Source: Fuerstiella sp. (lineage in GTDB: Bacteria; Planctomycetota; Planctomycetia; Planctomycetales; Planctomycetaceae). Taken from it: a stretch of 64,000 nt of DNA. Below, in pieces: positions 10,930 to 38,845 of the stretch. Location: positions 1 through 64,000 of the forward strand of contig JALHMY010000021.1 in NCBI GenBank assembly GCA_022843805.1, in the 5' to 3' direction. Numbering within the stretch: the first letter of the stretch is position 1; the number at the start of each line of letters is the position of its first letter. The notes beneath the pieces are model-generated. The model ran no database searches. It was not told the DNA's origin and saw only the letters and a program-made list of their open reading frames with translations. Both the position numbers and the translations under genes were made by a program.

Positions 10930-12006
10930 ATGAAACGCGCGTTGATTTTGATCGTGGGGATTGCGGTTTCTGCAATTTGCTTTGCCCTGTCTCTGAAGAA
11001 CACGTCGGGCAGCGATTTGAAAGCCGGTTTCGCTCAGGCGAACTACTGGACACTGCCACTGATGCTGTTCCTGCTGGGAAGTTTTTACTGGCTAAAGACG
11101 ATGCGATGGGCATGGCTGCTCTCGCCGGTCAGCACATTGAGTACTCGGCAGCTGTTTGCGCCCATGCTGATTGGATTTGCTGCGAACAACGTCCTGCCCG
11201 CTCATCTGGGGGAATTTGTGCGAGTGTTCGTTGTCTGGCGGAAATTTGGTGTGCCCGCTGCGGCAGTGCTGTCAACGGTTGTGCTGGAACGAATCTTTGA
11301 CGTGCTCGCCATCCTGACGCTGTTTGCCGTTGGCATCGCCTATTCGGGTGACCTGCCCGAAGACCTGCGTATCGCCGCCATTTTGCTGGGCACTGTTTTT
11401 GGTGGTATCGCTGTGGCGGTCGTGGTCTATCTGATCTGGACGGAGTGGTTTCTGAATCTCACACAGGCGATTTGCAGCCGACTGTCATTTCTTCCTCATT
11501 CGCTGACAGAGAAGATTCTGGGCATACTGCGAAACGGCGCGGCAGGGCTTGCTTCACTGCGCAGCGGACGGATGGTTCTTGCGATTACGGTCAGTTCAAT
11601 GGTTCAGTGGCTGATGAACGGGCTGATTGCTTATCTGGCACTGCGGTCATTTGGAATTCCCGTAACACCGGCAACCGGTTTTCTTGTTACGGGTGTAACA
11701 GCATTTGCCGTGATGATTCCTTCCACCCCAGGTTACTTTGGGGTCATCCAGCTGGCGTTTCAGTTCAGCATGAGCACTCAGCTGACTAAACCGGATCCTT
11801 CACTGGTTCTGGGCGCATCACTTTACTACCACATCAGCATGTATATTCCCGTGACGCTGCTGGGGCTCTGGTATTTGCAGAAGTCGGGTCTGCATTTGAA
11901 GGATCTGCAGCGGGCGGCTGACACGGCCGGTGAAGCGGTGGATGAAGTTATTTCCGATGCAGGGTCAGAATCACCAGCGACAGCAGTGGTTTCAGATGCG
12001 AAGTGA
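10930..12006 (+). CDS. UPF0104 / lysylphosphatidylglycerol synthase-type membrane protein
   Basis: A 358-aa integral membrane protein of the flippase-like UPF0104 (YbhN/AglD2/MprF N-terminal) family. Family features visible are MRWAWLL with RQLFAPMLIGFAANNVLPAHLGEFVRVFV near residues 58-100 (the R-x-x-E core with N-N-x-L-P), VLERIFDVLA (~120), and the C-terminal MIPSTPGYFGVIQLAF. About eight membrane helices are predicted by eye. Members translocate or modify lipids, or assist glycosyl transfer at the membrane; the substrate here is unknown. The last ~40 residues are soluble and acidic. Confidence 0.87.
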   Translation: MKRALILIVGIAVSAICFALSLKNTSGSDLKAGFAQANYWTLPLMLFLLGSFYWLKTMRWAWLLSPVSTLSTRQLFAPMLIGFAANNVLPAHLGEFVRVFVVWRKFGVPAAAVLSTVVLERIFDVLAILTLFAVGIAYSGDLPEDLRIAAILLGTVFGGIAVAVVVYLIWTEWFLNLTQAICSRLSFLPHSLTEKILGILRNGAAGLASLRSGRMVLAITVSSMVQWLMNGLIAYLALRSFGIPVTPATGFLVTGVTAFAVMIPSTPGYFGVIQLAFQFSMSTQLTKPDPSLVLGASLYYHISMYIPVTLLGLWYLQKSGLHLKDLQRAADTAGEAVDEVISDAGSESPATAVVSDAK

Positions 12007-12106
12007 GAAGGGGCGGATTTGAATTTTGTCGGGATCTTATGGAAGTCCATTTCCTTTTTTTTATGCCCGGAGGGCAGGCACAACCATTGCCAGGGTCGGA
12101 CGGATG

Positions 12107-12246
12107 TTGGCAGAAAAATTACTGGGCAGAAAAATTAGAACGGAAGATCGGTCTGGCCTTCCTTGTGGGAGTTCCTGCCAGTTAACTCACCGACCATCCC
12201 GTCATCGCCTGCGATTCATTTTTCTGCCCTGAAATCTTTCTGCCAA
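12107..12246. repeat. Inverted-repeat element (MITE-like), copy 1
   Basis: 140 bp bounded by TTGGCAGAAAAATT and its inverted form. Inside each end a second GGGCAGAAAAAT copy gives a ~30-bp imperfect terminal inverted repeat. It is nearly identical in sequence to copies 2 and 3. No coding capacity. The similarity to copy 2 extends beyond the element on the right to ~12375, including the segment CTGTGTTCTCTGTGCTATCT. Confidence 0.85.
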
Positions 12247-12510
12247 ATACTTCTTCCGGAACTCGGTATCACCGGCTCAACACCAATTGATAATCCCTGT
12301 GTCACATAACAGAAATCCTGCGATTCATCTGTGTTCTCTGTGCTATCTGTGGTTAAAAACGAACACTGAATGAACCGCGGATATCGCGGATCAATCACAC
12401 CAACGCTCTGTCGGTTTGCCTGCGACCACATCATTCGCTGATGAACTGCCACAGCGAATTTGACAGGCATGGCGAGCTGCTGTTCAGCTGTTTGAGCAGT
12501 CGGACGGAAG

Positions 12511-12650
12511 TTGGCAGAAAAATTACTGGGCAGAAAAATTGGAACGGCAGATCGGTCTGGCCTCCCTTGTGGGAGTTCCTGCCAGTTAACTCACCGACCA
12601 TCCCGTCATCGCCTGCGATTCATTTTTCTGCCCTGAAATTTTTCTGCCAA
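12511..12650. repeat. Inverted-repeat element (MITE-like), copy 2
   Basis: 140 bp, same length and nearly the same sequence as copy 1, with the best preserved ends (TTGGCAGAAAAATT ... AATTTTTCTGCCAA). With its right flank (to ~12783) it forms a second copy of a ~280-bp unit, so the array probably grew by segmental duplication. Confidence 0.85.
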
Positions 12651-12903
12651 GTCCTGCTTCCGGAACTCCCGTATCACCGGCTCAACACCAATCGAAATAC
12701 CCTGCGCCACACATCAGAAATCCTGCGATCCATCTGTGTTCTCTGTGCTATCTGTAGTTAAAAACGAACACTGAATGAACCGCGGAATCGGATTCGCAAA
12801 AGAATATCCAAGGGATTCGAAGTTACCGGCAGCGCGCGAGCCCTCCGGTTTCGTGGCACCGAACGGCTTGCACCGTTCCGCTGTTTGAGCAGTCGGACGG
12901 AAG

Positions 12904-13040
12904 TTGGCAGAAAAATTACTGGGCAGAAAAATTGGAACGACAGATCGGTCTGGCCTCCCTTGTGGGAGTTCCTGCCAGTTAACTCAATGGCCATCCCGTC
13001 ATCGCCTGTGATTCATTTTTCTGCCCTGAAATCTGTGGTT
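12904..13040. repeat. Inverted-repeat element, copy 3, deleted at right end
   Basis: Matches copies 1 and 2 from TTGGCAG up to CCCTGAAATCT at ~13033, then jumps directly to GTGGTTAAAAAC, which in copies 1 and 2 lies ~100 bp further right. This is a simple internal deletion joining two points that share TCT. Its left flank (CTGTTTGAGCAGTCGGACGG) matches that of copy 2. The remaining intergenic sequence of 12007-13134 holds no gene that I can support. Confidence 0.8.
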
Positions 13041-13134: not shown

Positions 13135-13764
13135 TTAAACAACGATCTCCGCTTCCAGAAATCGCCATGATTCTGACGTTGCCGCCTTTTTCATCTGGTG
13201 AAGAGTTTTCCAGCGAATGGAATGCTGCGGACTTTCGAATTTTGGCGGCTCGTCCGGCAGGCCGAGCAGCAGGTCCTTACGAACGACCATCGCTCGAATC
13301 TTTCGAGTCCGAATATCACCGTCGCATTCGTTTGTCAGGCAGATCAGAACGCGGATGGAATCACACGGCCGCCCGGCTTCACGCCTCAGCAGACCTTCCG
13401 CAAACTGTTCGGACAGTTCATTCAGCACCGAGTTCAGATAGAACCAGCAGTCATCCTTAATGATCGGGATGATGGGGTTTTCTTTTGTTGTGTTCTGCGA
13501 TATCGCGATCAGGCGGTCGACTGCAACCTGGTTCAGGAAGACTTCCGAGCACAGTTTTTCAGACAGGGTTCGAATGCGAAGAGTACCATCGACAACCGAG
13601 TTGAGTGAGATATTCAGGCGGTTGAAGAACTCCCGTTTCTGCCATTCACGCCCTGCCCGATAGCGAGCCAGCAGCCAGCCGATGGCAGCGAAGGCTGCGG
13701 CTGTAACAAACTTAACCCAGTGATCTGTGATGAGTCCGTTGAGTTCCCGGAGAATCGCCTGCAT
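13135..13764 (-). CDS. Hypothetical membrane-anchored protein
   Basis: A 209-aa protein I do not recognise. One N-terminal membrane helix (~residues 15-34, WVKFVTAAAFAAIGWLLARY) is followed by a cytoplasmic-looking soluble region with alternating helices and the segments VDGTLRIRTLSEKLCSEVF and RKIRAMVVRKDLLLGLPDE. Single-pass small proteins of this shape with a W-x-K-R-E-F-F motif after the helix are common hypotheticals. It follows dnaB on the same strand, 126 bp downstream, and may be cotranscribed. No function can be assigned. Confidence 0.65.
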   Translation of the reverse strand: MQAILRELNGLITDHWVKFVTAAAFAAIGWLLARYRAGREWQKREFFNRLNISLNSVVDGTLRIRTLSEKLCSEVFLNQVAVDRLIAISQNTTKENPIIPIIKDDCWFYLNSVLNELSEQFAEGLLRREAGRPCDSIRVLICLTNECDGDIRTRKIRAMVVRKDLLLGLPDEPPKFESPQHSIRWKTLHQMKKAATSESWRFLEAEIVV

Positions 13765-32707: not shown

Positions 32708-35176
32708 ATGCCGCTCCTGACAAAGCCATCCATGGGTAAGGAATCTGAGGATCTGAGGGCGTCTATCAGATATCATCTGAACCATACCCTTGGAGTGACG
32801 ACGGAACGGCTGCAGCCGGCGGAAGTATTTCGTGCTGTGGCACTGTCACTTCGGGACATGATGGTGGAGAAATACCTTGAGTCGGAAAAGACATGGCAGC
32901 GGGCTGGCAGCAAACGGCTTTATTATCTGTCACTGGAGTTTCTGATTGGTCGCTCGCTGCAGAATAATCTGATCAGCCTGGGCCTGTTCGAAACCTGTTC
33001 CGCGGTCCTGCAGGAACTGGGAGTCAGTCTTGCGGACGTTGAGAACTTCGAAACCGATGCCGCGCTGGGTAACGGGGGTCTTGGTCGGCTGGCCGCCTGT
33101 TTCCTGGACTCGCTGGCAACTCTGGGTATGCCGGGATTCGGTTATGGAATCAACTACGAATACGGACTGTTCCGACAGGAAATACGCAACGGCCAGCAGA
33201 TTGAGAAACCGGACAACTGGCGCACTTATGGAACTCCATGGCTGATCGAACGTCCTCAGGACGCTGTTCTTGTTTCGCTGTATGGTCGCATTGAAGACGG
33301 GCTGGACCGAACCGGGCACTACAACCCGATGTGGCTGGACTGGAAAGTTGTGATTGGAGTTCCCTGCGACCTGCCGATCGCCGGTTATGGGGGCAAAACG
33401 GTCAACTATCTGCGGCTGTATTCTGCGAGAGCATCGCAGGAATTTGATATGGCCATTTTCAACGGCGGAGATTACCTGAACGCTGTCGAACAGAAAGTAC
33501 AGCTGGAGACAATCTCCAAAGTTCTTTACCCAACTGAGGCCGTGCCGGCGGGTCGCGAACTGCGGCTGGTGCAGGAATATTTTCTTGTGGCGTGTGCCGT
33601 CCGCGACATCGTTCGCACCTATCGAAAAACACATTCCACGTTTGATCAGTTTGCGGATAAAGTTGCCATCCAGATGAATGACACTCATCCGGCTCTGACA
33701 GTGGCCGAACTGATGCGAATCTTTGTCGACGAAAATGGTTTGCCCTGGGAGCGTGCGTGGGAGCTGACAACGGCTTCGTGCGCCTACACGAATCACACAC
33801 TGATGGCGGAGGCACTGGAACGCTGGCCGGTGGCCCTGATGGAACGCGTGCTTCCGCGGCACCTTCAGATTATCTTTGAGATCAATGAACGATTTTTGTC
33901 ACAGGTCCGACTTCGCTGGCCCGGTGATGTTGCCCGGCTGCAAAGAATGTCTCTGATTGAGGAAGGTACCTTCAAGCAGGTTCGCATGGCTCACCTTGCA
34001 ATTGCAGGAAGTCATTCCGTCAACGGAGTTGCCGCGGTCCACAGTCAGCTGGTGGCGACGGAACTGGTTGCCGATTTTTATGCAATGTGGCCCGAGCGAT
34101 TCAACAACAAGACGAATGGAGTGACGCCGAGACTGTGGCTTCTGGCCGCCAATCCACCTCTGGCATCACTGATTACCGCATCAACTGATGACCAGTGGAT
34201 CACCGATCTGGAGCAGCTTCGAAAACTTGAATCCCTCGCAGATGATCGTGGATTCCAGCAGCAGTTTCAGGACGTCAAACACGCAGCAAAAATGCGACTT
34301 GCCGGTGTCTTGCGACAGTCAATGGGCGAACGCCTCGACTGTGACACTCTGTTCGATGTGCATGTCAAGCGGATCCATGAGTACAAACGGCAGCTGCTGA
34401 ACCTGCTGCATGTGATTCATGTTTACCTGCGTCTGACCGAGGATGGCAAGGCTCCTGTTCAGCCGCGGACGTGGATCTTTTCCGGCAAGGCTGCCCCCGG
34501 ATACTTTCTGGCCAAACAGATTATTCGACTGATTCACGATGTGGCAAATGTCATCAATCGTGATGTTCGAACTCGCGGCCACATGCGAGTCGTCTTTGTG
34601 CCGGATTATCGCGTTTCACTCGCTCATGTGATCATCCCGGCCGCTGATCTGAGCGAGCAGATTTCAACGGCCGGCATGGAGGCATCCGGAACCAGCAATA
34701 TGAAGTTTGCGATGAACGGAGCGCTGACGATTGGTACTCTGGATGGCGCCAATATCGAAATACGGGAAGAGGTGGGGGCTGAGAATTTTTATCTGTTTGG
34801 ACTGACGGTGCCGGAAGTCAGATCTCTGCGATTACAGGGTTACTACCCTCGTACGATTCTCGAACAGAACAGCGACGTGCGTCGCATATTGGATGCAATT
34901 CGAACGGGTCGATTTTCCGGAGGATCCTCGGATCGATACGGATGGATCTGTGACCGTCTGCTGAGTGATGGCGAACCCTATTATCACCTCGCCGATTTGC
35001 CTTCCTACCTGAAAACACAGGAGCAGGCCGCTGCCGATTATGTGGATCGACCTGGCTGGATCAGGAAAGCGATTCTGAATACTGCTCGCACAGGAAAGTT
35101 TTCAAGCGACCGCACGATTCGTGAATATGCCAGTGAGATCTGGAACATCAGGTCGAGTATTCCCGTCGAAGGGTAG
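32708..35176 (+). CDS. glgP: Glycogen/starch/alpha-glucan phosphorylase
   Basis: An 822-aa PLP enzyme that releases glucose-1-phosphate from glycogen. Visible are YYLSLEFLIGRSLQNNL near 75, the active-site segments ALGNGGLGRLAACFLDSLAT and YGINYEYGLFRQ, and HPALTVAELMRI. VKRIHEYKRQLLN lies at ~556, and the PLP site EASGTSNMKFAMNGALTIGT carries Lys666. ATG 32708 follows GGAG. The full length matches the family. It is divergent from the partner-switching operon, with ~200 bp between them, so shared control is possible. No other glycogen genes are near. Confidence 0.97.
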   Translation: MPLLTKPSMGKESEDLRASIRYHLNHTLGVTTERLQPAEVFRAVALSLRDMMVEKYLESEKTWQRAGSKRLYYLSLEFLIGRSLQNNLISLGLFETCSAVLQELGVSLADVENFETDAALGNGGLGRLAACFLDSLATLGMPGFGYGINYEYGLFRQEIRNGQQIEKPDNWRTYGTPWLIERPQDAVLVSLYGRIEDGLDRTGHYNPMWLDWKVVIGVPCDLPIAGYGGKTVNYLRLYSARASQEFDMAIFNGGDYLNAVEQKVQLETISKVLYPTEAVPAGRELRLVQEYFLVACAVRDIVRTYRKTHSTFDQFADKVAIQMNDTHPALTVAELMRIFVDENGLPWERAWELTTASCAYTNHTLMAEALERWPVALMERVLPRHLQIIFEINERFLSQVRLRWPGDVARLQRMSLIEEGTFKQVRMAHLAIAGSHSVNGVAAVHSQLVATELVADFYAMWPERFNNKTNGVTPRLWLLAANPPLASLITASTDDQWITDLEQLRKLESLADDRGFQQQFQDVKHAAKMRLAGVLRQSMGERLDCDTLFDVHVKRIHEYKRQLLNLLHVIHVYLRLTEDGKAPVQPRTWIFSGKAAPGYFLAKQIIRLIHDVANVINRDVRTRGHMRVVFVPDYRVSLAHVIIPAADLSEQISTAGMEASGTSNMKFAMNGALTIGTLDGANIEIREEVGAENFYLFGLTVPEVRSLRLQGYYPRTILEQNSDVRRILDAIRTGRFSGGSSDRYGWICDRLLSDGEPYYHLADLPSYLKTQEQAAADYVDRPGWIRKAILNTARTGKFSSDRTIREYASEIWNIRSSIPVEG

Positions 35177-35297
35177 TTTCAAAACCCGGGTTCTCCCGCC
35201 ACGGGGCGGGGACGTGCCGAGTCGTCGTTCGCCCGGCGTCAACTTCAGCAGTTCTCCTGGGATGCAGCATTGTCAGGCGAGCGGCAAAATTGTCTTT

Positions 35298-35430
35298 ACC
35301 GGGAGCGCGAGGCTCCTGCCGAGCTTGTTTTATCGGGAACGCGAGGCTAATGCCGAGCTTGTCTTATCGGGAGGGCGAGGCTCCTGCCGAGCTTGTCTTA
35401 TCGGGAGGGCGAGGCTCCTGCCGAGCCGAT
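35298..35430. repeat. 34-bp tandem repeats, four copies
   Basis: The motif CGGGAGGGCGAGGCTCCTGC followed by CGAGC recurs at 35300, 35334, 35368 and 35402 with an exact 34-bp period; the second copy is diverged (GAACGCGAGGCTAATGCC). The same motif, inverted, is found once at 63564-63590, so it belongs to a dispersed GC-rich family. Confidence 0.88.
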
Positions 35431-35812
35431 GACTCGCTACAAGTGAGCTCCAGGAGATCCAAACAACCAACAAAGCCAATAAGAACAAAGTCCGGCAGTC
35501 ACCCGTTCTGATTCCAGAAAAATAATTCCCAGCTGGCCCTTTATAGAGGTACGCAAAACTGTGCCGGTGTCCACGGGCATCCACCAGCGCCGATGTCTGA
35601 TCGACCGCATCATCATGCGTCAGCGATGAGCGATCGACGGGGCTCCTCCCGGCCTTGTGCCGGGAGAGCCAGGGTTTGGCAACTACTTCGTTCCCTGGAG
35701 TTCTATACCCGGGTGCAGGTGACGTAAAACGCGGCGGGAATGTCGTGATGCGGGTTTTAGGCATGGTCCCCGTAGTTTCCAAACCTGGGCTCAACCGGCA
35801 CGAGGCCGGTTG

Positions 35813-36156
35813 GGCAACGCCGTGAAGGATTTTTTTGAGTGAAAACATTGCGATTTAACCCGGAACGGGTTTCACAACAAAACCTGGGGTCGACGCGAAG
35901 CGGCGCACCCCAGGTTCGTGATGTTCGTTCGCCCCGAACCCTGAAAGGGTTCCACAAGGCTGTGATCGATCGTTCATGGTGTTGTGGAACCCCGTTGGGG
36001 TTCAATCGCATTTTCCTGTGTTTTTCCTGGGGTGCGCCGTGTTCACGGCGACCCCAGGCTTTGTTGTGAAACCCCTGTCGGGGTTGGAAAACGGACATCA
36101 TCTGGCCACCAGAGAGGTCACCGTATTTGCTGATAGAAATCCTTCACGGCGTTGCC
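35813..36156. repeat. Composite element with perfect 20-bp inverted ends
   Basis: GGCAACGCCGTGAAGGATTT at 35813-35832 is perfectly inverted at 36137-36156, and weaker similarity (CCTGGG..., CCGGTTGG...) extends outward on both sides. Between them lie further inverted segments around CCTGGGGT/ACCCCAGG and GGGTTTCACAACAAA/TTTGTTGTGAAACCC. The whole ~340 bp can fold into a long branched structure. No transposase is encoded. Confidence 0.75.
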
Positions 36157-36235
36157 GGTTGGGGCCAGCCTGGGTTGAAGAGAGTCATCGTGCTGTGATT
36201 GGGAGCAAAGTTGCTTCAAGCTTCGGAAGGGAGTA

Positions 36236-36381
36236 TTGGGCAGAAAAATTTTTGGGCAGGAAGATGAAACGCACATGCATCAGGGGTTTTCAGCAGAACT
36301 CATCGGCCGCCGCCCTGGGGCTCTGCCACACAGTTCTTCCGTTCCGTTCAAATTTTTCTGCCCGGAAATTTTTCTGCCCAA
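36236..36381. repeat. MITE-like element, diverged relative of the 12-kb family
   Basis: 146 bp bounded by TTGGGCAGAAAAATT and its inverted form CTGCCCAA, each followed inside by a second GGGCAG copy, exactly the end structure of the 12-kb elements. The centre is unrelated. It shows that the end sequence is a dispersed family, not only a local duplication. Confidence 0.8.
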
Positions 36382-36473
36382 AAAAGTCTGCTCTCCTGGC
36401 CAGCAGAACTCTGGTTCTCCTTCCCTATGGCACAACCGAGCCATCGGTCGCGGCTTCCGATGGGGCGAGTCCT

Positions 36474-38525
36474 TCAATTCTCCTGCGACGGTTCAGCGTC
36501 CAGCAACCATGCTGAATTAAAATTGGCCGCCCACACGACTGAAGTGCTCGTATCACTTGCCGGGCCGTCTGGACCGGCTGGCGATGCGGATTCCGGCGGA
36601 GCAATTGACCGGACGGCGATGTCGCCCAGCCGTGGAAACAGCCACGCATTGGACGCTTTGAAATCCCGATCGTGTATTGTGTGGCCCGAATTGATCACCA
36701 CATAGCGTTTTGGATTTAATGGATTGGGGTAAATCAGGCTGATGGAATGCGTCTTTGCATCCCATTTGCGGTCCCCCACCTGAATCGTGTCGGCTGTCCA
36801 TTGAATGGGAAGCTGTGCAAGAATCTTTCGCAGCACTGCGTTGCTTCCGGGATCTCCGAACAGTACCAGATGATGACTGGCGATCGTTTCCTCATCCAGT
36901 GCCGTATCACTGATGACTTTTACTTCTCCCCTCATCCACTGATCAAACTCCGCCGAGAACTGATCAAAGACTCCTGCAGCCCACTTGTCGATGGCCGGAT
37001 TCTGAGGAGTGCCGGTTCCCTTAACGCAGACAAATGCGTCCATAAATGCATCGTCAATCGGCCCCTGAAGGCCGTGACGCTTGTGCATGTCCGGATTGCC
37101 GGCAAAAGCTCGGGACTCGGCATAACCCAATACTTCCCAGCCATTGCCTGTCCGCAGATAATACACTTCGGGAAGCAGACCATCGGCAGCCAGTCGACAG
37201 GGCAGTCGGCTGCCATTGACGAGTGCATCGCTGGCGATGTCACGTGAAATTCGGAAAGCCGTCACGTTATCTGTGACAATGCTGACATCGCCGTCCTCAG
37301 TCAGCTGAGCTTCAACCGTTGACGGCTGATAGACCGATTCAACTTCTTCGATGGTCAGCCAGTCGCACTGATTGTATTTGAGTGTTCGAGTTGTGAATCG
37401 AATGTGTTTTCGCTGGCTCGGGGCTGGCACGCCTTCGGCTGATTTTTCGAGGTGAAACGCCATAAACTGTTTCTGGCTTTCGGGGTCGAACTTGTGCCCC
37501 ATCCCGGGCCCAACGATCACTTTGACAGGCACGCTGAGTGCGGCGGCAGCCTCTGCCATCGTGGTACTGGCTGCCAGCTGAGGGTCCAGTTCACCGCCGT
37601 ACGTGCAGACCGGCACATTCGCAGCATTCAGCGCATAATCCACGGCATCGTAAATACCAAGAGTTGCGTGCTGCCATGCCGGAAGTTTTTCCATCTGCTT
37701 CTGATATTTGTAGAAGTCCACAAATCCTGCACCCGGCCCGACGGATGACCACAGGTGAGGATAATGCAGACCAAGATGCCATGCTCCGGCACCACCCATC
37801 GAAAACCCGTGCAGGGTAATACGTTTCTCGTCAATTCGAAATCGATGTTTCACGTCGTCCAGAGCTTCGAAGACATCCGTTTCACCCGCCCAGCGATAAG
37901 CGTTGCTTCCCCGACCATAGACATCCAGCTGAATCCAGTCGATTTTTTCCTTTGGTTTTCGCCCTTCAAACCGATGAATAAAGTTGACTTCATTCATTTC
38001 ATTAGCGCGGCCGTGCAGTACCAGATGCAACGGCCATTTTTTTGTATCGCCTGGATTAACGCCTGCCGGAAGTGTCAACGCATATGGCTGAATCGATCCA
38101 TCAACCCGACTCACATATCCGCGAATCGTCGAACCTTCCTGTGTCTGCCAGTCGGCTGTCCCGTTCTGCAGCTGAGCCGCTCGGGCAGCACCTGCTGACA
38201 ATACTTTGCGAGCCTGTTCTGCGTACTCGGGCCGATAGAATTCGTTGTGCTTCAGAATCCATGTGACTGCCTTTTCGAAGACTGCCACATCTGCCCACTG
38301 AGCTCTCAGTTCCCGACTGCCGGATACAAGCTTTCTGTCGAGTTCACTGACCGAAACCGTCAGTGCATTCAGGTTCGAACGCAGTTCCTGCAGAACTTCT
38401 TCTGACGGAGTTTCGTGCGGTGTAGCCTGCTGGGCATTTGCCTGCGGAAGGCCGAGGCTCTGGCAGATGGCCATGACGGCAATTGCTGTCGCCGACAGAC
38501 GAAAACGAGGGGCGCCATATCCCAT
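36474..38525 (-). CDS. Secreted alpha/beta hydrolase (S9/esterase-type)
   Basis: A 683-aa exported protein. ATG 38525 gives MGYGAPRFRLSATAIAVMAI and a signal peptide ending near QANAQQ; the frame is open further upstream but without support. After a helical segment (~35-130) comes a hydrolase domain: KWPLHLVLHGRANEMNEVNF, the nucleophile elbow HGFSMGGAGAWHLG and a His in GPGMGHKF. The rest (~400-683) is beta-rich, with GSNAVLRKILAQLPIQW near the end. The pattern is like planctomycete prolyl-oligopeptidase-type hydrolases and feruloyl-esterase-like proteins. The substrate is unknown. Confidence 0.85.
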   Translation of the reverse strand: MGYGAPRFRLSATAIAVMAICQSLGLPQANAQQATPHETPSEEVLQELRSNLNALTVSVSELDRKLVSGSRELRAQWADVAVFEKAVTWILKHNEFYRPEYAEQARKVLSAGAARAAQLQNGTADWQTQEGSTIRGYVSRVDGSIQPYALTLPAGVNPGDTKKWPLHLVLHGRANEMNEVNFIHRFEGRKPKEKIDWIQLDVYGRGSNAYRWAGETDVFEALDDVKHRFRIDEKRITLHGFSMGGAGAWHLGLHYPHLWSSVGPGAGFVDFYKYQKQMEKLPAWQHATLGIYDAVDYALNAANVPVCTYGGELDPQLAASTTMAEAAAALSVPVKVIVGPGMGHKFDPESQKQFMAFHLEKSAEGVPAPSQRKHIRFTTRTLKYNQCDWLTIEEVESVYQPSTVEAQLTEDGDVSIVTDNVTAFRISRDIASDALVNGSRLPCRLAADGLLPEVYYLRTGNGWEVLGYAESRAFAGNPDMHKRHGLQGPIDDAFMDAFVCVKGTGTPQNPAIDKWAAGVFDQFSAEFDQWMRGEVKVISDTALDEETIASHHLVLFGDPGSNAVLRKILAQLPIQWTADTIQVGDRKWDAKTHSISLIYPNPLNPKRYVVINSGHTIHDRDFKASNAWLFPRLGDIAVRSIAPPESASPAGPDGPASDTSTSVVWAANFNSAWLLDAEPSQEN

Positions 38526-38632
38526 ATTGTTTGTGCTCACCTGCTGAAACGGCTGCTTGCTGAAATGGCCTGCTTCCGATGATCGGACAGAACAGATTGC
38601 AGAAGTGTTATTGTTACAGAAGTGTTTTGATT

Positions 38633-38845
38633 TCAGGCCGTGGGCGCTCGTTCGGCTGACTGAAATCCGCAGCGATTGTGTGACCCGTCGCAGAATGGCC
38701 GGCGTTCGGATGCACCGCACCGGCAGAGCGCAACGGTTTCCTTACCACCCAGACTAAAGGTGTTGCCTGCAGCATCGCAGACAGAGATGGCACCGGTAAT
38801 CAGAAACGGACCGTTGTCTCGAACATTAATTTTGACTTCGGACAT
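38633..38845 (-). CDS. CDGSH-type iron-sulfur protein
   Basis: A 70-aa protein. The single CDGSH motif CRCGASERRPFCDGSH gives the three Cys (41, 43, 52) and one His (56) that hold a 2Fe-2S cluster. The N-terminal strand region NVRDNGPFLITGAISVCDAA is the usual fold start in the bacterial family. Such proteins are thought to be redox or cluster-transfer factors. It lies 107 bp upstream of the hydrolase start, same strand. Confidence 0.93.
   Translation of the reverse strand: MSEVKINVRDNGPFLITGAISVCDAAGNTFSLGGKETVALCRCGASERRPFCDGSHNRCGFQSAERAPTA

Follow-up and report, generated by a model that had tools for sequence, protein, structure and literature searches.

Intergenic hairpin repeats of a Fuerstiella genome that look like gene-less copies of an element carrying a GxxExxY-type nuclease gene in its relatives

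What are the short inverted repeats that lie close together near the beginning of a Fuerstiella contig, and what could have spread them? The window, i.e., the whole stretch of 64,000 nucleotides that was analysed, had been described in an earlier note as carrying three copies within 1 kb of an element whose ends consist of two nested, inverted units, and a related element with a different centre at 36.2 kb. These coordinates hold, since elements 1-3 span 12108-13026 and the fourth element is present at 36238-36379. Each element end is composed of two direct 13-bp boxes (GGCAGAAAAATT) with a period of 16-17 bp; the two ends are mutually inverted, and the inverted arms are 29 bp long. The box starts are 12108/12124 (+) paired with 12217/12233 (-) in element 1, 12512/12528 paired with 12621/12637 in element 2, 12905/12921 paired with 13014 in element 3 and 36238 paired with 36351/36367 in the fourth element. 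When up to two mismatches were allowed, GGGCAGAAAAATT was found 20 times in the whole window, 14 times inside the four elements, whereas 100 shuffles gave a mean of 1.96 matches (sd 1.34, largest 6). The features read in the window, with the basis of each in brackets, are:

12095-13034, no strand: tandem array of three element-plus-spacer units between the convergent genes 10930-12006 (+) and 13135-13764 (-) (393-405 bp period; homology to other loci over 12095-13034; ORFs)
12108-12136, plus strand: end B of element 1, a pair of direct boxes with a period of 16 bp (box matches, end reading)
12217-12245, minus strand: end A of element 1, a pair of direct boxes with ATGAATCGCA on their inner side (box matches, end reading)
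12246-12511, no strand: spacer 1, with three 7-bp boxes at 9-bp period, ATCTGTG at 12327, CTCTGTG at 12336 and ATCTGTG at 12345 (sequence)
12512-12540, plus strand: element 2 end B (box matches, end reading)
12621-12649, minus strand: element 2 end A (box matches, end reading)
12650-12904, no strand: spacer 2, with boxes ATCTGTG at 12732, CTCTGTG at 12741 and ATCTGTA at 12750 (sequence)
12905-12933, plus strand: element 3 end B (box matches, end reading)
13014-13026, minus strand: element 3, the inner box left of a truncated end A (sequence, element reading)
36238-36379, plus strand: fourth element, with different centre and diverged left inner box, between convergent genes (sequence, box matches, ORFs)

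The earlier note gave 140 bp as the unit, which is correct for the element; the unit that is repeated is larger and comprises element and spacer in tandem, with blocks of 170 and 116 bp and a period of 393-405 bp. The third copy is truncated, as it has no outer right box and its homology ends at about 13032, and the left inner box of the fourth element has diverged to gggcaggaagat. The 7-bp boxes of spacer 1 are, by eye, of the type that accompanies short GxxExxY genes in this genome (loci L129 and L132), so that two repeat systems seem to be joined in one array. Another interspersed repeat, with GAACCC..GGGTTC arms, lies at 35846-36086, just left of the fourth element, and accounts for most of the 54 matches of the congener G001 to the query 33500-38700.

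Further copies are numerous in the genome. In the own assembly (9.2 Mb, 172 contigs) the exact box GGGCAGAAAAATT occurs 87 times and the reversed pattern, used as control, not once; a match of any kind was found in 9 of 98 relatives (eight with one and one with two, the own genome excluded), the three congeners having 1, 0, and 0. From the box and similarity matches 46 regions were picked and read, and they gave 67 elements and 168 double boxes, the latter in 45 loci with the window included. The period of the two-box ends (n = 164) is 16 bp in 123, 17 bp in 40 and 15 bp in one. The two ends are unlike each other: end A continues into ATGAATCGCA, most B ends are followed by a (T)GGGACGGAA-like stretch, and 65 of the 67 elements combine one A with one B end, the remaining two being scored B/B. 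Most elements (55/67) measure 122-146 bp, although some contain longer centre inserts, which give elements of up to 379 bp. Constant ends around a changing centre, as suggested from the window, are seen throughout the 31 elements that were aligned, with a majority identity of 95.5% in arm columns vs. 69.4% in centre columns. Covariation was not detected, as none of 21 predicted pairs in these 31 elements changed on both sides, hence the conserved thing is the letters of the box.

Tandem arrays are frequent, with up to five elements and a period specific to the locus (391-405 bp in L060, 245 bp in L079), and near-identical elements, centres included, occur at distant loci (95% over 161 bp between contigs C50 and C33). 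Homology between dispersed copies often ends at the outer box edge, a pattern that conserved boxes with faster-changing flanks would also produce. Clear swaps, in which an A-type flank stands on a B end, were found at 2 of 168 boxes (L048:4950 and L051:4868); of 26 mixed-type pairs, the 25 that are listed all go back to these two, and in nine box pairs only one of the two sides matches well. A search of viral contigs for the double-box pattern gave no stretches.

Where do the elements sit? With ORFs of at least 180 aa, called mechanically and left uncurated, 46 of 55 clusters could be classified (nine without a called ORF on one side were dropped): 24 lie between convergent, 18 between codirectional and four between divergent genes, compared with 20, 82, and 34, respectively, of 136 cluster-free gaps of at least 60 bp in the same loci. 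The convergent class is enriched (Fisher p 1.4e-6), and both window sites belong to this class. Empty sites, a check proposed for the window repeats, exist as element-free syntenic sites in two congeners. In G002, whose assembly is incomplete (66%), the two genes that flank the array are 264 bp apart without any box, compared with 1128 bp in the window, and in G001 a box-free 1080-aa ORF lies between them. The flanking coding matches have 67-74% DNA identity, hence these are syntenic gaps in which no base-exact empty site or target duplication is readable.

The pattern GGCAGAAAAATT-N(2-5)-GGCAGAAAAAT was found in 32 stretches of other genomes (genome contigs), 31 of them with PVC titles and one with a Clostridium title, and several of these are compact hairpins of about 60-78 bp. 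In one of them (L115, Kiritimatiellales) inverted double boxes, 899 bp from outside to outside, surround a single gene, which encodes a protein of 261 aa that matches PF13366 with 79.4 bits and TIGR04256 (GxxExxY) with 74.8 bits. By protein similarity, 15 of 18 box-bearing genomes contain a match to this protein at E <=0.001, and in 9 of 18 a full-length or nearly full-length homologue is present (19 matches, of which 18 were read). Most homologue genes have inverted double boxes on both sides, whose letters vary from gene to gene and mostly agree across one gene; among them are GGCAGAAAAAT, GGTAGAAAAAT, GGCAAAAAGAT, GACAAAAAGAT, GGCAGAACAAT, GGCAGAATAAT, AACAGAATAAT, AGCAAAATGAT, GGCAAGGGAAT, and others.

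This linkage was scored in a flank test, in which the best upstream double box and the inverted downstream double box of each gene give a maximum of 33. A score of at least 27 was reached by 23 of 27 nuclease genes vs. 2/100 controls, for which other ORFs with a length of >=200 aa in box-bearing loci were taken; this cut-off was chosen after the scores had been seen, and the result is 22/27 vs. 1/100 at 28 and 23/27 vs. 4/100 at 26. In the first version, with flanks outside the gene only and shuffles as control, 19/27 reached at least 27, and the test was redone with 45 bp of the gene and real-ORF controls because some boxes overlap gene ends. Genomes chosen for the box contributed 18 of the 27 genes (16/18 pass), thus the cleaner subset is the nine genes that a family survey found by protein profile alone, without a box criterion, of which seven pass. 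The four failures are L140, with box-like pairs that are not inverted between sides, L156, with a GGTTTG repeat run downstream, L179, and L180. Outside the 27 stand the G169 matches placed as in G108 (L173, L181, and L184), a partial match (L183), the G102:C26 gene (L290, no ORF by the filter), a gene fragment on G102:C1 (L291) and, from the phylum survey, L222 (close to the edge of its contig) and L223, which has a box only downstream; L291 and L222 are, by eye, flanked by boxes left and right. One of the two passing controls, L116:5390-6052 (Kiritimatiellales; score 30), is a 220-aa ORF without a Pfam match that itself lies between two GGCAGAATGATT-like hairpins; profile comparison with the nucleases gave no relation, and it may be either spurious or a further linked gene.

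Gene-less copies of a nuclease box could be followed in samples of 399-400 kb. In G105 (Pontiella sulfatireligans, 400 kb) AGCAAAATGAT, the box of nuclease L141, forms four double boxes at three places, and it forms none in the samples of G102 and G001 or in the window. In G102 (399 kb) seven GGCAGAAAAAT double boxes were found, three beside the fragment L291, which is of the L142/L143 type, and four in L258, where no nuclease is listed; the GGCAGAAARAT hairpins of L258 are thus about 155 kb from a nuclease gene fragment with the same box on both sides. GGCAGAATAAT, the box of the G105 nuclease L166, occurs once in the G105 sample, and its score of 5 in the window is due only to the tolerance of one mismatch in each box. 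The boxes of the G102 nucleases L139, L152, and L163 and of L155 in G105 form no double boxes in the 399-400 kb samples. In L155 and L166 the last nuclease codons enter the downstream box, which encodes a C-terminal KLFC peptide. In a Verrucomicrobia record (L122:4182-4254) five GGCAGAAAAAT-type boxes follow one another in direct orientation with a period of 15 bp.

The box-flanked protein is a PD-(D/E)XK nuclease of about 265 aa, in which a GxxExxY domain (TIGR04256/PF13366) is joined to a C-terminal half. The N-terminal ~115 aa match the GxxExxY family above cut-off (PF13366 in one protein with 79.4 bits, the cut-off being 22; TIGR04256 in three proteins with 62.7-74.8 bits, the cut-off being 35), whereas the conserved C-terminal ~130 aa, a part that the box-flanked form has in addition to the GxxExxY family (PF13366 PDDEXK_3), match no family in Pfam (one protein) or in NCBIfam (E 0.001; three proteins scanned). 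Residues invariant in 16 of 16 aligned members include M1, P2, E41, D75, E85, K87, Q99, W247, and N249, and we take E41..D75..E85xK87 to be the E..D..ExK pattern of PD-(D/E)XK enzymes. AlphaFold2, run with two sequences, gave a mean pLDDT of 35.7, comparison with solved structures one chance-level match (4ic1, E 0.23), and PADLOC a Cas4 match (E 0.038) in a single one of the three proteins. For part of the tree the box letters follow the clades (judged by eye and after the fact), and over all pairs box and protein distances do not correlate (Mantel r 0.08, 481/2000 permutations as high; 23 genes, boxes by eye). Few genomes have the nuclease: within the own family 8 of 120 contain it at E 1e-25, and in a phylum sample 2 of 294 at E 1e-40, where at most eight first-look candidates were scored in the genomes listed. 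PF13366 matches at E <=1e-20 are present in 20 of 40 relatives. A limited literature search found no account of GxxExxY/PDDEXK_3 function or of a link to repeats, and for the box strings the matches listed were all apparently unrelated by title.

In the own genome eight PF13366 matches are present, and the full-length nuclease profile gave six, none of which goes past position 135 of 266. Nuclease remnants were searched for in 532 kb around the elements, window included, with a profile that recovered its known members; none was found at E <=1, the best being 1.2. The congener G001 has one nuclease (L179, with box-like sequence only upstream). A transposase gene with the same ends, which the earlier note suggested looking for, thus has a counterpart in part: in other genomes a gene does lie between similar ends, but it encodes a PD-(D/E)XK nuclease and not a recognised transposase, and the search of the own genome gave no full-length form of it. 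The own copies would accordingly be left over from a past burst or rely on an unrecognised enzyme. The likeliest history is a burst in the window species followed by loss of the nuclease gene; the own copies may also be driven in trans by another enzyme, or a nuclease copy may be missing from the assembly.

Short GxxExxY genes often have repeats of another kind beside them. CACAGAG/ATCTGTG-type intergenic tracts are common in many bacteria, and the own-genome genes L129-L132 adjoin repeats with shorter boxes at a period of about 9 bp. Such boxes (CACAGAG, CGCAAAG, AACAGAG, CACGGAG, CGCGGAT, and CACGAAA) stand on both sides of L213, L218, L219, L158, L159, and L162 and on one side of L203 and L221, and by eye more flanking repeats are visible than pass a strict lag-9 score. 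With this score 6 of 45 loci passed on both sides and 12 on at least one (45 of 46 listed loci, L204 being left out, with gene places assumed in some), whereas 400 random positions gave none and 12, respectively, and the 12 Y1 loci of the own genome none. In 21 of 29 short-GxxExxY loci no ORF was found, and one of the eight ORFs found (L218) is plainly the wrong gene.

How can these observations be explained? Taking together what was directly observed, i.e., the boxes, their copy number, the A/B pairing, the convergent enrichment, the element-free sister loci and the matching boxes at PVC nucleases, we consider it probable that the window elements belong, as non-autonomous copies, to a family that has as its autonomous form a GxxExxY-type PD-(D/E)XK nuclease gene between inverted double boxes. 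More tentatively, a cut-and-copy mechanism can be proposed, in which the nuclease would recognise its own double box and cut DNA there, with either the duplex or an extruded hairpin as substrate. The stretch between the boxes would then be copied into the cut by repair or recombination; dispersal, tandem arrays and segment exchange at boxes could be the outcome.

The same elements could be read as classical MITEs, cross-mobilised by a DDE or other transposase, with the nuclease as a passenger caught between the ends. Inverted ends, a changing centre, many copies, short length (122-146 bp in most) and the absence of coding capacity are all MITE-like, and the hairpin-bounded L116 ORF would suit this reading; yet it is unlikely, as the gene that recurs between the boxes is the nuclease, with box letters that differ by clade, and no transposase was seen with the same ends or between the boxes (the own-genome ORFs near elements are known by length, and a Y1 search was added). 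Two boxes per end and tandem arrays are also unlike a MITE. It is very unlikely that the repeats are a functional RNA or a bidirectional terminator at transcript 3' ends, spread by ordinary duplication. Although about half of the clusters lie between convergent genes and the arms can pair, two-sided changes are absent from the predicted pairs, no Rfam match at gathering score but one tRNA was found in the whole window, the elements are nearly confined to one species among 99 genomes, and the U-tracts stand inside the stem and not after it.

Smaller still is the probability of operators of the nuclease or of another DNA-binding protein that are immobile and owe their spread to selection or drift. 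The direct boxes, with their period of 15-17 bp and a run of five in L122, do resemble iterated protein sites, but the near-identical elements at distant loci share their centres too, which points to copying of DNA and not only to convergence of sites. Equally improbable is a REP/BIME-type repeat spread by a RAYT (Y1) transposase, one of the two classes proposed in the earlier note. The elements are like the REPs described in PMC3733652 in standing between convergent genes and in having paired inverted units, and 12 Y1_Tnp matches (PF01797, RAYT) are present in the own genome; however, their 2.6-3.3 kb loci contain no double box and only few, weak single boxes, so that RAYT was rejected as the partner enzyme, and the linkage in other genomes is to the nuclease. 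What stands of that proposal is its transposable-element half, as gene-bearing relatives with similar ends exist elsewhere.

The nuclease-linked family that we favour would nevertheless appear, judged by its sequences, to work like REP/BIME/REPIN repeats with their RAYT, where a gene is likewise flanked by its own hairpin repeats, many copies are gene-less and most lie between convergent or codirectional genes (here 24 + 18 of 46). It is set apart by its enzyme, a PD-(D/E)XK nuclease instead of an HUH enzyme, and by its hairpin arms, which consist of two direct boxes of ~11-13 bp. A REP is defined in PMC3733652 as a 20-40 bp palindrome with a GTAG or CGTC tag, whereas the element consensus has, by eye, 29-bp arms 60-90 bp apart with no such tag seen. 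Homing endonuclease genes would be similar in spreading by cutting and repair-copying, but here gene and repeats are intergenic and hairpin-flanked, and the nuclease would recognise the box of its own element. The attC site of integrons, on which the integron integrase (IntI) acts, has inverted R and L core boxes, unlike the two boxes of one arm here, which are direct.

The repeats of the window therefore resemble copies, without a gene, of a kind of selfish DNA that has apparently not been described before; in its gene-carrying relatives a DNA-cutting enzyme is encoded between the same ends. This provides a hypothesis of function for a frequent protein family that has none (PF13366) and suggests which enzyme may lie behind a class of intergenic repeats. 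It is conceivable, with somewhat less than an even chance, that selfish DNA of this kind is PVC-wide, that a transposase-free GxxExxY nuclease makes and spreads its own hairpins with a lineage-specific box, and that the short GxxExxY genes with 9-bp-period boxes are a second branch. If this second branch is true, a widespread class of bacterial intergenic repeats would be explained, and, if the proposed mechanism is right, nuclease-driven copying would be a second route to REP-like repeats in bacteria, besides HUH transposases.
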